Origin: Armatimonadota bacterium
GTDB lineage: Bacteria > Armatimonadota > Fimbriimonadia > Fimbriimonadales > Fimbriimonadaceae
Assembly: GCA_016789105.1 (NCBI GenBank)
Contig: JAEURN010000010.1
Span: 1 to 51,347 of the forward strand
Direction of reading: 5' to 3'
DNA length: 51,347 nt
Below the pieces are notes generated by a model. It was not told where the DNA came from. It searched no databases and was given only the letters and a program-made list of their open reading frames with translations. The stretch's first letter is position 1, and each line of letters starts with the position of its first letter. Position numbers and translations under genes: made by a program. Shown piece by piece: positions 34,439 to 39,982 of the stretch.

Positions 34439-35944
34439 ATGTGGATCGCCACCCGCGCCGAATTCCAGGAGATGGATCGCCGGGCAACCGAGGAGTTCGG
34501 AATCCCGGTGGCAACCTTGATGGAGAGCGCGGGGGAAGCCGTACTCCAATATGTGAGCGAAAACACTCGGCCGGTTGCGGTGGTCTGCGGGGTTGGCCAT
34601 AACGGGGGCGACGGGTTTGTGGTTGCGCGACTGTTGGCCGAAAGGGGTGACCAGGTCACCGTCTTTGTCGCCGCCGAATCCCCTGACCGTTTGAAGGGCG
34701 AGGGTCTCGCCCGGTTCAATGAACTCCCCGCAGGCATCCCAATCCATTTCGGCGAGTTTTCCCAGTTAACGGACGAGCGGTGGGACACTGTTGTGGATGC
34801 CATCCTGGGGATCGGGGCCGAGGGCGCTCCACGGGGATTGGCAAAAGCGGCGATTGAGGCAGTCAACTCCTGTTCTGCCACCCGCATCTCAATTGACGTT
34901 CCAAGTGGCATCGATTGCGATACCGGCCAGGCTGCGGGAGCATGGGTGCGGGCTGACGAAACGATCCTCCTCGGCCTGGCCAAACAATTTGTCTTTCAAG
35001 GAAATGGGATCACGGCGATGCGGCATTGGTCGCTTGCTCCTATCGGATTTCCGACGAAACTGCTTACGCAAGTGAGGGGCGCCTACCTCACGGACCGGTC
35101 TGAAGTTTCGGAGCAACTGCCAATCCGCAGATTCGACTCCCACAAAGGCGAGAACGGCCATGTCCTCATCGTTGCCGGAAGCCAAAGCATGCGGGGGGCG
35201 GCGGTTCTCGCGGCCATGGGCGCCGTGCGATCAGGAGCCGGATTGGTGACAGTGGCCGGCATACCGGCGGTTTGTGATTCGGTCGCTTGTCATTTGCCAG
35301 AGTGCCTGACGATGGCCCTGCCGCAAAGCGGCGACGGCATCGCCCATGTTGCCGCCCAGCTGATCCGGGCTAACAAAGGCAAGTGGACCGGGGCCGTGTT
35401 CGGGCCCGGATTGGGGCAATCGGACAATGTGCGGCAATTCCTTGCCGGCGTTTGGGACGGGTGGGACATCCCGAGCGTCATCGATGCCGACGCTTTGAAC
35501 GCGGTCTGCGAAGGGGTGAGCCTTGCACCTGCGCCGTGCATCCTGACCCCGCATCCAGGCGAAATGGGGCGCCTTTTGCGCACCTCAGCACAGGATGTCC
35601 AGTCGAATCGGTTCACTGCTATCCGGCAAGCCTGCGAACAGTTTGGAAAACCAGTGGTCCTCAAAGGCGCTTACAGCTTGGCGGCTACCCCAGGTCATCC
35701 GATATCGGTCAACCCTACCGGCAATCCCGGCATGGCGGCCGCTGGGATGGGCGACGTATTGTGCGGGGTGCTGGCCACCCTCCTTGCCCAACAACTTGAT
35801 CCGCGGATTGCGGCCGAATGCGCTACGTTTTGGCATGGCCATGCGGGCGACCTTTGCGTGGAAGAGCAAGGTGATTTTGGCTACACGGCTAGCGACCTGG
35901 CGCGAAAACTGCCCGACGCCCGGGCTACACTCACCCCAGCGTGA
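34439..35944 (+). CDS. nnrD: Bifunctional NAD(P)H-hydrate epimerase / ADP-dependent dehydratase
   Basis: Metabolite repair of damaged NADH and NADPH. 501 residues. The N-terminal half is the YjeF_N epimerase (about 1-210): VATLMESAGEAVL, VVCGVGHNGGDGFVVARLL, ISIDVPSGIDCDTG. The C-terminal half is the ribokinase-like dehydratase (about 225-495): GHVLIVAGSQSMRGAAVLAA, VFGPGLGQSD, CILTPHPGEMGRLL, and GNPGMAAAGMGDVLCGVLAT. Fusion of the two activities is the common bacterial form. Its stop overlaps the next gene's GTG start by four bases (GTGA), linking it to the FHA module. Confidence 0.96.
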   Translation: MWIATRAEFQEMDRRATEEFGIPVATLMESAGEAVLQYVSENTRPVAVVCGVGHNGGDGFVVARLLAERGDQVTVFVAAESPDRLKGEGLARFNELPAGIPIHFGEFSQLTDERWDTVVDAILGIGAEGAPRGLAKAAIEAVNSCSATRISIDVPSGIDCDTGQAAGAWVRADETILLGLAKQFVFQGNGITAMRHWSLAPIGFPTKLLTQVRGAYLTDRSEVSEQLPIRRFDSHKGENGHVLIVAGSQSMRGAAVLAAMGAVRSGAGLVTVAGIPAVCDSVACHLPECLTMALPQSGDGIAHVAAQLIRANKGKWTGAVFGPGLGQSDNVRQFLAGVWDGWDIPSVIDADALNAVCEGVSLAPAPCILTPHPGEMGRLLRTSAQDVQSNRFTAIRQACEQFGKPVVLKGAYSLAATPGHPISVNPTGNPGMAAAGMGDVLCGVLATLLAQQLDPRIAAECATFWHGHAGDLCVEEQGDFGYTASDLARKLPDARATLTPA

Positions 35945-37146
35945 AACGGGCTTTCCTTCTCTTCGCACTCCTTGCGGCGGCTCTCGGCTCCGCCCAAGAC
36001 CTCAAAACATTCGTCGTCACCCCTCCCGGAGAAGGTGGTTTTGCCTACGTCTTTTCGAAAGGCGACGAGATCAAAGACCCTGTCCCGATCGAAGGGAAAT
36101 TCGCCGAAGCGGCGGCACCTGATGACCCGAATGGCTGGAAAGTCTGGGTTGTGGACTCGGCCATCAACCGCGCCGCCGGAATGGACTTGGTCGCTGCCCT
36201 CAAAGCCAAGGCATTCAAACCCAAGGCTGACCAATTCACTACAGTTGCCGACATCGAGTTCCATGTCGCGACCAAATCCGGGCCGTTCCCGGGCGGCAGC
36301 CTGGTCGTCACGGGGGGGAAAGACCCGCTTGTTTTCAATATCCCGGCGAGCGACAGCAATGTTGTCGGAGCCCACTTCCTCACACAGGGGGCCTACAAAT
36401 TCGAACTGAAATATTCAGCAGGCGGGGAGGACAAGTCGGTCAGCGGCACATTTGAGCCGGACAAAAAAGGCGGGGCCTTTGTGGTGGACATTTTGGTACC
36501 CGAATCTTTCAAGGAACCTGTATCCGACCAATCCACGGCAAAGCCTGCTGGAAGCACGCCGGTTCAGACTCCCTCCCAACCCCGCGACTCTGGTCAGAAC
36601 CCAGCCATGGCGTTCTTGCGGCTTCTGGTGGGTCTTGCGGTCGTCGGCGGCTTGGGTTATGCCGGTTGGTGGTACTACCGCAACAACCAGACCGTTGTTG
36701 AAAAACTCGCCGACCAAGCCGGGCTGAACCGGCAGACAGGGGCGGCACCGGATCCAACCGGGGCGATGCCCCCCGAACCCGCTAAGCGGGACATCCAGAA
36801 AATAAACCTCGGCTCGGACGCCGCACCCATTGCGGCTTCGGCATCACCGGCGGCAACCCCCACCGTCAAGAATCCCCGGTTGGTGACGGCTGGCGGCGAC
36901 GTGTTTTTGATCCCCGAAGGCACCGCTACCGTCGGGCGGGAAAATTCGGACGTTGTGGTCGCCGCCGAATCGGGGGCCAGCCGCCGCCATGCCGAAATCT
37001 CGCGAACCGGCGGAGTAGTCACCCTAACCGACAGCGGGAGCACGAACGGAACCTATGTCAACGGAACCAAGATCGCTGCCCCCACCGTCATTCAATCGGG
37101 GGACACCATCCAGTTCGGGGCCGCGTCCTACCGATATGAAGAGTAA
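35941..37146 (+). CDS. Single-pass membrane protein with cytoplasmic FHA domain
   Basis: 401 residues. Signal peptide (VKRAFLLFALLAAALGSAQ, GTG start), an extracytoplasmic beta-rich domain (about 20-190), a Ser/Thr/Pro linker, a membrane helix at about 221-242 (FLRLLVGLAVVGGLGYAGWW), and a C-terminal FHA domain (about 310-400) with the phosphothreonine-binding residues visible: TVGRENSD, SGASRRHAEIS and SGSTNGTYVNG. The topology places the FHA domain inside the cell. Such domains bind phosphothreonine peptides made by Ser/Thr kinases, but no kinase gene lies in this window. First gene of an FHA/FHA/VWA set; the outer domain may sense a signal. Confidence 0.85.
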   Translation: MKRAFLLFALLAAALGSAQDLKTFVVTPPGEGGFAYVFSKGDEIKDPVPIEGKFAEAAAPDDPNGWKVWVVDSAINRAAGMDLVAALKAKAFKPKADQFTTVADIEFHVATKSGPFPGGSLVVTGGKDPLVFNIPASDSNVVGAHFLTQGAYKFELKYSAGGEDKSVSGTFEPDKKGGAFVVDILVPESFKEPVSDQSTAKPAGSTPVQTPSQPRDSGQNPAMAFLRLLVGLAVVGGLGYAGWWYYRNNQTVVEKLADQAGLNRQTGAAPDPTGAMPPEPAKRDIQKINLGSDAAPIAASASPAATPTVKNPRLVTAGGDVFLIPEGTATVGRENSDVVVAAESGASRRHAEISRTGGVVTLTDSGSTNGTYVNGTKIAAPTVIQSGDTIQFGAASYRYEE

Positions 37147-37147
37147 T

Positions 37148-37165
37148 CCCGGCATTTGTGCCGGG
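37148..37165 (+). repeat. Short GC-rich hairpin between the two FHA genes
   Basis: CCCGGCA at 37148-37154 and TGCCGGG at 37159-37165 form a 7-bp stem with a TTTG loop directly after the first FHA gene's stop. No T-run follows, so it may attenuate or stabilise the message rather than end it. Confidence 0.5.
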
Positions 37166-37185
37166 TGAAACCAACAGAAACCGCC

Positions 37186-38565
37186 ATGGGGAAAATGCTC
37201 GGAAGGGCCCTGCTCTGCGCGATTGCAGGGACATTGGGATGGATTGTCACCGAACCGATGCTGCCCAAATCGACGCTGAGTCCCGAGTGGTCCCGTGCCG
37301 AGTTCGTGATGGTTTGGCTGACCCTGATGTTGATGGGGCTGGCCGCCGGATTCCATCAGGGTTGGATGAAAGGCGGGCGGCGAAACATCCTATTCGGCAT
37401 CGCCCTTGGCGCGGTTTTCGGAACGATCGGCGGAATCGTCGGCTACCAAATCGGTGGCGGCCTGAGTTCTGCCATTTTCGGCCCCGGTTGGGCCGTCCAA
37501 GGCTTCCCGATCATCCCACGGACGATCACTTTTGCCTGCATCGGTTCGTTTTTGGGGATGGGGGTCGGCCTCACCCAGTTCCGTAGCCGCATCGTGGTTG
37601 CGGGAGCGTTTGGCGGATTGATTGGCGGCGGTTTTTCCGGCCTGGTTTTCGACCCGATCGGCCAGACGGTCGGCCATATCCTGGCGGGTGGCGGCGAATC
37701 GGGCTTTGTCGGGCGCGCAGTGATGTGGCCCTTGATCGGTTTCACCGTTGGGATGTTCACAGCCTGGCTAGAAGTGGCGACCCGCCAAGCATGGGTGCGT
37801 TTGGTGTTGGGCCGCAACGAGGGCAAAGAGTGGCCCATCGACGGTGTTCGAACCTTTATTGGCCGGGATGAGCGTGCCAACGTGCCCCTGTTCGGTGACA
37901 TGAACGTGGCCCCTTTGCACGCCACCATCACACGCCAAGGGGTGAACTACATTTTGAGCGATGCTGGATCGCCAATCGGCACCGGATACCAGGGGATGCA
38001 ACTGTTGCAACCGGTGGCCTTGCAACCGGGGGACACGTTCCAGATCGGATCGCACCAACTGCAATTTTTGGTGAAAGCCGGGGCCGCGCAGCGCATCCGC
38101 GAGGGCCGCGCCCATGCCGTCCCCGTGGGATACCAAGGCTCGCCGAGCGCGGCGCAGCCGCCCGGTCAGCCCGTCCCGTTGACTCCGATCCAAACATCAG
38201 GGGCCTTGTCAAGCCCAATCGGCGCGCCGGTTCAGCAGACGAACCCGACCCAAGCTTATGCGCAATCGGCGGCAGTGGCTGGATTTGCGCTTGTTGCGTT
38301 GGATGGCCCGATGACCGGGCAACGAATCGCAGTTGCCGGGCCGATTGAAGCCGGCCGCGAAGCCCCCGGGATCAACCTGGGCTTCGATGCCCAAGCGTCG
38401 CGTCGCCATGCCACCCTTGCGCCAACCGCCCAAGGAATCCATGTCAAAGACCTCGGGAGCACCAATGGCACGTTTTTGAACGGTCAAAAGGTGCCCGAAG
38501 GCGATGCCCCTGTTGGGAGCGTCATCAAGATTGGATCGACCAGCTTCCGCGTGGAGTCAACATAG
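37186..38565 (+). CDS. Polytopic membrane protein with two FHA-like domains
   Basis: 459 residues from ATG at 37186 (a GTG at 37165 would add seven). Residues about 5-205 contain five to six glycine-rich hydrophobic helices (LLCAIAGTLGWIV, FVMVWLTLMLMGLAAGF, GIALGAVFGTIGGIVGYQIG, ITFACIGSFLGMGVGL, VVAGAFGGLIGGGFSGLVF, AVMWPLIGFTVGMFTAW). A first FHA-like domain follows (about 225-310) but is degenerate: GRDERAN and APLHATI are kept while the usual GSTNGT reads GSPIGTGYQG. A Pro/Gln-rich linker leads to a canonical C-terminal FHA (about 370-459) with GREAPG, SRRHATL and GSTNGTFLNG. Middle gene of the FHA/FHA/VWA set, 13 bases before the VWA gene. The glycine-zipper helices suggest an oligomer or channel-like body; that is inference. 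Confidence 0.82.
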   Translation: MGKMLGRALLCAIAGTLGWIVTEPMLPKSTLSPEWSRAEFVMVWLTLMLMGLAAGFHQGWMKGGRRNILFGIALGAVFGTIGGIVGYQIGGGLSSAIFGPGWAVQGFPIIPRTITFACIGSFLGMGVGLTQFRSRIVVAGAFGGLIGGGFSGLVFDPIGQTVGHILAGGGESGFVGRAVMWPLIGFTVGMFTAWLEVATRQAWVRLVLGRNEGKEWPIDGVRTFIGRDERANVPLFGDMNVAPLHATITRQGVNYILSDAGSPIGTGYQGMQLLQPVALQPGDTFQIGSHQLQFLVKAGAAQRIREGRAHAVPVGYQGSPSAAQPPGQPVPLTPIQTSGALSSPIGAPVQQTNPTQAYAQSAAVAGFALVALDGPMTGQRIAVAGPIEAGREAPGINLGFDAQASRRHATLAPTAQGIHVKDLGSTNGTFLNGQKVPEGDAPVGSVIKIGSTSFRVEST

Positions 38566-38578
38566 AGTAGCCGCCGCC

Positions 38579-39982
38579 ATGAATCAAAACGACCCAAACC
38601 GAACCATCATCTCCCCGCCGCTCGACCCAAACCGGACGGTAGTCGGCGGCCCCTCATTCGGCGGCAATCAGACGATGGCCATGTCGGCCCCGCCAATGGC
38701 CGGCGACCCGAACCGGACGGCCGCATTTGCCCCCGCGAGCCCCCTAAAGTTTGTTTTGACACCGACCCGCGAGGCAACGATGGCCAACGGCCCGGCTCGG
38801 GAGCAGTTTCTTTTGGAAATCACCGCCCCGACCGACGGCGGCCTCCCTGGCATGTCGATGTCTGGCGACCGCGCCCCTCTCAACTTGTGCCTAGTCATCG
38901 ACCGCTCCGGATCGATGGAGGGCCAACCAATGGACTATGCCAAACAAGCCTGCAACCAGCTGGTCGACCTGCTGAGTGCCAATGATGTGCTCTCCATCGT
39001 GGTTTTCGATGAGATCGTCGAAGTGCTGATGACCCCGCAAAGGGTGACGGACAAACAGGCCATCAAAAACGGGATCGCCCAACTCCAACCCGGCTACACC
39101 ACAAACCTCTACGACGGGATGACCTTGGGGAGCCAGCAACTTGGCCAAGCCATCGAATCGGGAAGGGTGACCCGCATGGTAGTGCTCACCGACGGCGAGC
39201 CGACGGCCGGCATCAAAGACTTTCAGCCGCTTGTGGCCCATTCGGGCGAGATCAAAGACAAAGGCATCACCACCACATTCCTGGGGTTTGGGCAGGAATA
39301 TAACGAAGAACTATTGGCCAGCATGGCCAAGCGGTCCGGCGGCAACTACTACTACATCCCGCGTCCCGAACTGATTCCGGAGATCTTCCGCACCGAGTTC
39401 AACAAGATGGTCAGCACCACCGGTGTCAACCTCCGCCTCGACCTAAAAACTGCCCGATGGGTCAAGCTTAAAGGCGTGACCGGGCACACCGGCGCCATCG
39501 ATCGCGAAATCAGCGTCAATTTGGCCGACATCGAAAAGGGTTCGACCATAGAAGTCGTCTGCGATTTCGAATTCGAAAACCATCCATTGGGTTGGTACCG
39601 GGTTGCAAGCGGCAAACTCTCCTACGACTCGGTGACTGGCGGCACGCAAACCGTCGATGTGGATTTCGTCATGGAATTTACGGCCGATTCTGCACGTTAC
39701 ATGGCGGCCCCGAATCCCAAGGTCGATGCGGCGTGGCAGGTTTCTGCGGCTTCGCGGGTGGTTGAAAAAACGATCATGGGGCTCAAAACCCAGGCGATTA
39801 CATCACAGGCCGCTTTGGCGGATCTTGCCAAAACCCAAGCCTTGTTGACCTCTCAAGGCAAGAAAGCCGACGCCCAAGAGGTCACTATGGCGATGCAGGC
39901 GATCCAGCGGGGGGATATCGGCGGGGCCGAGAAAACCCTGATGGGAACAATGGTCAAATTGGATCAGGGCAAGAGCCAATAA
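38579..39982 (+). CDS. Cytoplasmic VWA-domain protein with N-terminal DPNRT repeats
   Basis: 467 residues. The N-terminal about 50 residues are disordered-looking and hold three DPNRT copies (threonines at 9, 20 and 47) plus a related NQT at 30-32. The VWA domain (about 95-290) has an intact MIDAS: D108-x-S110-x-S112 in VIDRSGSME, a threonine in TTNLYDG and an aspartate in VVLTDGEPTAG. A beta-sandwich region (about 300-390) and a helical C-terminus (about 395-467) follow, as in VWA proteins related to YfbK or Ca-activated-channel-like families. No signal peptide, so it is probably cytosolic and could meet the FHA domains encoded by the two preceding genes. The repeated threonines are candidate phosphosites. 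Confidence 0.88.
   Translation: MNQNDPNRTIISPPLDPNRTVVGGPSFGGNQTMAMSAPPMAGDPNRTAAFAPASPLKFVLTPTREATMANGPAREQFLLEITAPTDGGLPGMSMSGDRAPLNLCLVIDRSGSMEGQPMDYAKQACNQLVDLLSANDVLSIVVFDEIVEVLMTPQRVTDKQAIKNGIAQLQPGYTTNLYDGMTLGSQQLGQAIESGRVTRMVVLTDGEPTAGIKDFQPLVAHSGEIKDKGITTTFLGFGQEYNEELLASMAKRSGGNYYYIPRPELIPEIFRTEFNKMVSTTGVNLRLDLKTARWVKLKGVTGHTGAIDREISVNLADIEKGSTIEVVCDFEFENHPLGWYRVASGKLSYDSVTGGTQTVDVDFVMEFTADSARYMAAPNPKVDAAWQVSAASRVVEKTIMGLKTQAITSQAALADLAKTQALLTSQGKKADAQEVTMAMQAIQRGDIGGAEKTLMGTMVKLDQGKSQ

Follow-up and report, generated by a model that had tools for sequence, protein, structure and literature searches.

Three adjacent genes in a stretch of Fimbriimonadaceae (Armatimonadota) DNA belong to a conserved module that extends beyond these three genes, and they probably supply the membrane half of a phosphothreonine switch resembling the archaeal ArnA-ArnB pair in the way it works. 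The stretch analyzed, referred to here as the window, comprises 51,347 nucleotides of a genome that we labelled G000. The genes encode two membrane FHA proteins, FHA1 and FHA2, and a VWA protein; the original prediction described them as a three-gene membrane signalling module, but it overlooked the tandem DPNRT repeats with which the VWA protein begins, as well as the second half of the system, whose genes lie beyond the window.

All three open reading frames were found closely packed on the plus strand, as had been described, with gaps of 39 bp between FHA1 and FHA2 and 13 bp between FHA2 and VWA. FHA1 (35941..37146) has a signal peptide, an outer beta region, and one transmembrane helix, joined by a disordered linker to a cytosolic FHA domain; FHA2 (37186..38565) carries six predicted glycine-rich transmembrane segments and two FHA domains; and VWA (38579..39982) has an ArnB-like architecture with a split beta-sandwich, a vWA domain with an intact MIDAS, a C-terminal four-helix bundle, and a threonine-repeat tail. 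Pfam searches identified one FHA domain in FHA1 (E 9e-19), two FHA stretches in FHA2 (4e-23), and VWA in the third gene (1e-19). Earlier starts are possible for FHA2 (TTG 37156) and VWA (ATG 38504), but orthologue alignments back ATG 37186 and ATG 38579, respectively. Directly upstream of FHA1 on the same strand is a fused NAD(P)HX epimerase/dehydratase gene (34439..35944), a position that it also holds in most of the Fimbriimonadaceae and, among distant genomes, in 13 of 20; it is probably co-transcribed with the module, and a functional tie is not known.

On the available evidence, the VWA protein appears to work like ArnB. Its AlphaFold model (pLDDT 84) places a split beta-sandwich, a vWA domain with its MIDAS (38879..39412, plus strand), and a four-helix bundle (39716..39967, plus strand), located where ArnB has its regulatory bundle, after a disordered tail. 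Residues 54-466 of the model matched ArnB (8s05_A) with a Z score of 34.0 and 3.4 Å over 373 residues, the whole folded length. The next PDB matches were a Catenulispora vWA protein (4fx5, Z 33.0) and ArnE/vWA2 (5a8j, Z 30.7), below which Z fell to 26 with less coverage; ranking the PDB by sequence only put 5a8j first and 8s05 third. The Pfam ArnB_C model (PF18677) had no match in the window's genome at E 10, although the Sulfolobus control was positive, so the VWA protein would not be filed as ArnB. The VWA protein is soluble, and none of its MIDAS positions (D108, S110, S112, T174/T175, and D205) varies among 36 orthologues, which agrees with its earlier description as MIDAS-containing. In the archaeal complex, ArnB offers its sandwich and bundle as the docking surface for the ArnA zinc finger, and phosphorylation of bundle threonines by ArnC recruits the FHA domain (PMC12852372). 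Bundle residues T398, T419, and T453 of the VWA protein are invariant among its orthologues, with the conspicuous threonine array located N-terminally instead. A highly conserved FxNHPLGxYR stretch in the beta-sandwich (residues 332-342; 39572-39604) is a possible docking site for a zinc ribbon.

The feature that is new here is the presence of tandem DPN[KR]T repeats in the disordered tail of the VWA protein. This tail (residues 1-52; 38579..38734, plus strand), in which pLDDT is below 50 almost throughout, contains four repeats, DPNRTIIS, DPNRTVVG, NQTMAM, and DPNRTAAF, within the N-terminal sequence MNQNDPNRTIISPPLDPNRTVVGGPSFGGNQTMAMSAPPMAGDPNRTAAF. Among 46 VWA tails from the window's order, whose genomes are related so that the counts are not independent, most had 3-4 repeats (range 1-5) at variable spacing. 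Threonine followed lysine or arginine 141 times in these tails and serine only once, while a stricter pattern, D(1-3 residues)[KR]T, occurred 133 times and its serine equivalent never; relative to the tails' own Ser:Thr ratio, this excess corresponds to a binomial P near 1e-18, uncorrected for kinship. All four threonine codons are used in the repeats. A hydrophobic residue occupied the +3 position at 111 of 163 sites (68%) compared to a background of 21%, and the +3 residues of the window's own VWA protein are S, G, M, and F, two of the four being without a hydrophobic residue. In other classes the repeats loosen to a TQ(A/M) type that keeps the threonine (TQ 40, SQ 1). We rejected DPNRT as a common motif of the window's genome: five of its 13 DNA matches fall within VWA and the gene for a second candidate substrate, ZRFHA (see below), and each of the other eight stands alone, mostly in a frame that is short or implausible. 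FHA domains bind phosphothreonine and mostly fail with phosphoserine (PMC6509490), and this preference is the simplest reason for finding threonine without serine in the tails. The threonine array and the enriched +3 hydrophobic residue are what would be expected of FHA ligands, and we propose that the VWA tail is a multi-site phospho-acceptor for FHA domains.

The repeats could instead represent another linear motif, such as a metal- or protein-binding one, on a VWA protein that acts as a phosphorylation-independent scaffold or chaperone while the targets of the FHA proteins and the kinase lie elsewhere. The ArnB-like architecture is indeed widespread and mostly comes without a phospho-switch (PMC12852372, discussion). 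Nevertheless, the near-absolute choice of threonine over serine, the +3 hydrophobic enrichment, and the presence of FHA, PP2C, and kinase genes in the same operon make this explanation unlikely.

The two membrane proteins largely match what had been predicted for them. FHA1 is a single-pass protein by predicted topology, with a signal peptide, a beta region on the outside at residues 23-189, one transmembrane helix at residues 221-248, and a canonical FHA domain inside (36928..37119, plus strand; residues 330-393), in which the phosphothreonine-binding Arg, Ser, His, and Asn are invariant in 38 of 38 orthologues. FHA2 is polytopic and glycine-rich, its six predicted transmembrane segments (residues 3-197) preceding both FHA domains. 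The first of these domains (37855..38049, plus strand) is degenerate, since its Arg and His are mostly kept across 40 FHA2 proteins but the pocket Ser and Asn are absent, whereas the second (38371..38535, plus strand) has a full pocket with all four residues invariant in 40 of 40. We found no evidence for the channel-like body suggested for FHA2, and the sensor role given to FHA1 on account of its ectodomain is a guess; the ectodomains of FHA1 orthologues gave only sub-threshold Pfam matches to CarboxypepD_reg or DUF1416, and the rows listed by structure searches for the ectodomain fold were taken up by FHA chains. Zinc ribbons of the form CPYCGxxxDPxTGxCxC directly precede an FHA domain in FHA1 of families f5, f3, and one f2 member and in FHA2 of families f2, f3, and f4 (orthologues L133, L139, L126, L128, and L123), and are absent in the window's family. 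Neither protein reached the NCBIfam cut-offs compared, with FHA2 scoring 53.9 against 200 bits for OdhI and 85.4 against 125 bits for FhaB and FHA1 scoring 49.4 against 125 bits for FhaB.

The FHA proteins also match TagH and GltG weakly, below cut-off, which raises the question of whether the module regulates or belongs to an envelope machine of the secretion, pilus, or gliding type, comparable to FHA-PpkA-PppA of type VI secretion. FHA, VWA, kinase, and PP2C domains likewise come together in type VI control, where the threonine phosphorylation pathway of PpkA, PppA, and Fha1 unites all four as the present system does. However, the NCBIfam matches are far below cut-off, no secretion genes lie beside the module in the window, and the VWA domain here is a separate, soluble ArnB-like protein. 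A pathway linked to type VI secretion was rejected on the absence of any match to the VipB sheath gene (PF05943) in this genome, the E. coli control being positive. We therefore regard an envelope machine as rather improbable. A defence system was rejected in turn, as PADLOC returned no match.

Sequence searches covered 61 relatives (threshold E 0.001), those named being Fimbriimonadaceae and other Armatimonadota. VWA, FHA2, and FHA1 queries each matched 60 of the 61, some of the matches being paralogous domains; full-length VWA orthologues are present in nearly all of them, and phylum-wide at 45-50% identity. The best 80 matches of a genome-contig scan came essentially from Armatimonadota only. 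In families f1, f3, f4, and f5, FHA1 and FHA2 adjoin in 39 of 40 genomes, and FHA2 adjoins VWA with FHA1 preceding in 36 of the 40, so the three-gene order whose conservation had been set as a test is kept in four families. In family f2, FHA1 and FHA2 stay together in six of seven genomes and VWA lies elsewhere in six of seven. One member of the window's own family, G036, has a reduced genome without VWA, FHA1, FHA2, ZRFHA, or the kinase; the neighboring NAD(P)HX gene (NAXE) was lost as well, and for this reason we did not count the co-loss as specific evidence. G036 and G164, both 1.5 Mb, 97% complete, and without VWA and NAXE, represent a genome-reduction lineage in this family.

The module is larger in other orders of the Armatimonadota, where six genes follow one another on one strand in the order FHA1-FHA2-VWA-ZRFHA-PP2C-kinase. 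ZRFHA is a protein with a zinc ribbon (CX2CX10CX2C) followed by two FHA domains. Among 20 sampled genomes outside the window's order, VWA and ZRFHA adjoin on the same strand in all 20, PP2C follows ZRFHA in 17, the kinase follows PP2C in 14, and the run of six is complete in nine, several of the shortfalls being contig ends; FHA1-FHA2 precedes VWA in most of these genomes, not all. Two families of the window's order have a five-gene run, FHA1-FHA2-VWA-ZRFHA-PP2C, without the kinase. That FHA1, FHA2, and VWA are mere operon neighbors without joint function, as the seemingly unrelated NAD(P)HX repair gene in the same operon might suggest, is very improbable given that Fimbriimonadaceae and distant families of the Armatimonadota share the order and that FHA1-FHA2 or VWA-ZRFHA move as blocks.

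The Ser/Thr kinase and phosphatase that the original prediction sought near the module in other genomes are accordingly present, sharing its operon in other orders; in the window's family both are unlinked from the module, and only orthology ties them to it there. In the window's genome, ZRFHA (G000:C10:66836-67729) and PP2C (G000:C10:65999-66832) adjoin each other (C10:65999-67729) at a distance of about 27 kb from the module, the membrane kinase being on another contig (G000:C4:197199-198956). Kinase and ZRFHA orthologues are near-universal in the window's order. ZRFHA of the window's genome bears a tail similar to that of the VWA protein (MSDLNRTQMAPPPTTDPNKTQLGTPVDPNRTIMG), and sequence comparison picks ArnA among other FHA proteins; neither the OdhI (66.7 against 200 bits) nor the FhaB (116.4 against 125 bits) NCBIfam cut-off was reached. 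PP2C passes the Stp1/IreP cut-off (237.1 against 230 bits). The kinase (Pkinase, E 2e-50) has its catalytic VAVKE lysine, HRDVKPEN, and DFG all present and is single-pass with one transmembrane helix; a scan of one outgroup orthologue showed TPR repeats on the opposite side of the membrane. An EITAK(F/M)-like motif with a threonine is conserved at the N-terminus of the operon PP2C (L275-L292) and is perhaps a further FHA ligand.

Two other kinase loci were rejected as cognate. A PASTA protein on contig C7 (L028:4329-6095; G000:C7:52328-54094) reads HGD in place of HRD and has no DFG, making it likely a pseudokinase. An FHA-kinase cluster on contig C3 is a separate locus with its own PP2C, and its kinase is not an orthologue of the kinase in the outgroup operon; this cluster (L026:4353-12894; G000:C3:144352-152893) encodes an FHA-kinase fusion, a PP2C, a 911-residue FHA protein, and a 561-residue lipoprotein-like protein with a C-terminal FHA domain.

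Among known systems, the ArnA-ArnB network of the Sulfolobus acidocaldarius archaellum, with kinases ArnC and ArnD and phosphatase PP2A, shares the vWA domain with split beta-sandwich and C-terminal four-helix bundle, the type of partner (a CX2CX10CX2C zinc finger with FHA), a Ser/Thr kinase and phosphatase, and several candidate phospho-threonines. It differs in that the known ArnB phosphosites are in the C-terminal bundle, whereas the acceptor array here is N-terminal and repetitive. The partner here also has two FHA domains, the phosphatase is a PP2C rather than PP2A, two membrane FHA proteins are added, and the system is a single bacterial operon without an archaellum or a Pfam ArnB_C match. 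The combination, which the original prediction did not know as a named system, is not entirely unfamiliar, as VWA, zinc-ribbon FHA, kinase, and phosphatase resemble archaeal ArnB-ArnA-ArnC-PP2A. A literature search for this gene combination in bacteria returned archaeal work and general papers only. In the actinobacterial switches GarA and OdhI, an FHA domain likewise reads a threonine motif from a disordered tail at the N-terminus, the motif being TSVF there and, by prediction, TAAF here, and ZRFHA also combines such a tail and FHA domains in one protein; unlike the present system, GarA and OdhI are small enzyme regulators with a single FHA domain and have no VWA, zinc ribbon, or membrane partners. 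The mycobacterial fhaA-fhaB-pstP-pknA-pknB cluster also groups FHA genes, a PP2C, and a membrane kinase, but it is without VWA and a threonine-repeat substrate; the outer part of the kinase here is short or TPR-like, not PASTA, and the NCBIfam FhaB (Rv0019c) cut-off is unreached.

From the gene order, domain architecture, predicted fold, and threonine-array and motif statistics, which were observed directly, we infer the phosphorylation and binding steps of the ArnA-ArnB-like switch as follows. The single-pass kinase would sense a signal and phosphorylate the threonines of the VWA tail and probably also those of the similar ZRFHA tail. The phosphorylated T-x-x-hydrophobic motifs would then be bound by the canonical FHA domains of FHA1, FHA2, and ZRFHA, and the number of phosphorylated repeats would decide whether VWA sits at the FHA1/FHA2 membrane platform or tightly with its ArnA-like partner. 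PP2C would reset the switch, while the output would pass to a target through the ArnB-like body of VWA with its MIDAS face, beta-sandwich, and helix bundle. The phosphothreonine-gated membrane complex originally proposed is thus supported by conserved adjacency, a linked kinase and PP2C elsewhere, an FHA-ligand-like threonine tail, and intact predicted pockets, but the proposal missed ZRFHA, which is inseparable from VWA outside the order, and FHA1/FHA2 are sometimes not beside VWA. More tentatively, these sequence patterns could reflect a phylum-wide bacterial multi-site phosphothreonine rheostat, in which the number of phosphorylated tail repeats directs an ArnB-type vWA protein either to a membrane platform of FHA proteins or to a soluble partner with zinc ribbon and FHA; it would be a bacterial relative of ArnAB in which a single operon encodes the substrate along with its writer, its eraser, and every reader.

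For most bacterial FHA proteins the phospho-ligand is not known. Here, a single operon provides a candidate ligand with multiple threonines together with three FHA readers, a kinase, and a phosphatase, such that the circuit could be tested with few peptides and proteins. If the reading is true, the logic of ArnA-ArnB, described from archaea, is present in bacteria with its phospho-sites placed differently, and the module would offer a first functional handle on signalling in the Armatimonadota, a phylum with little experimental work.
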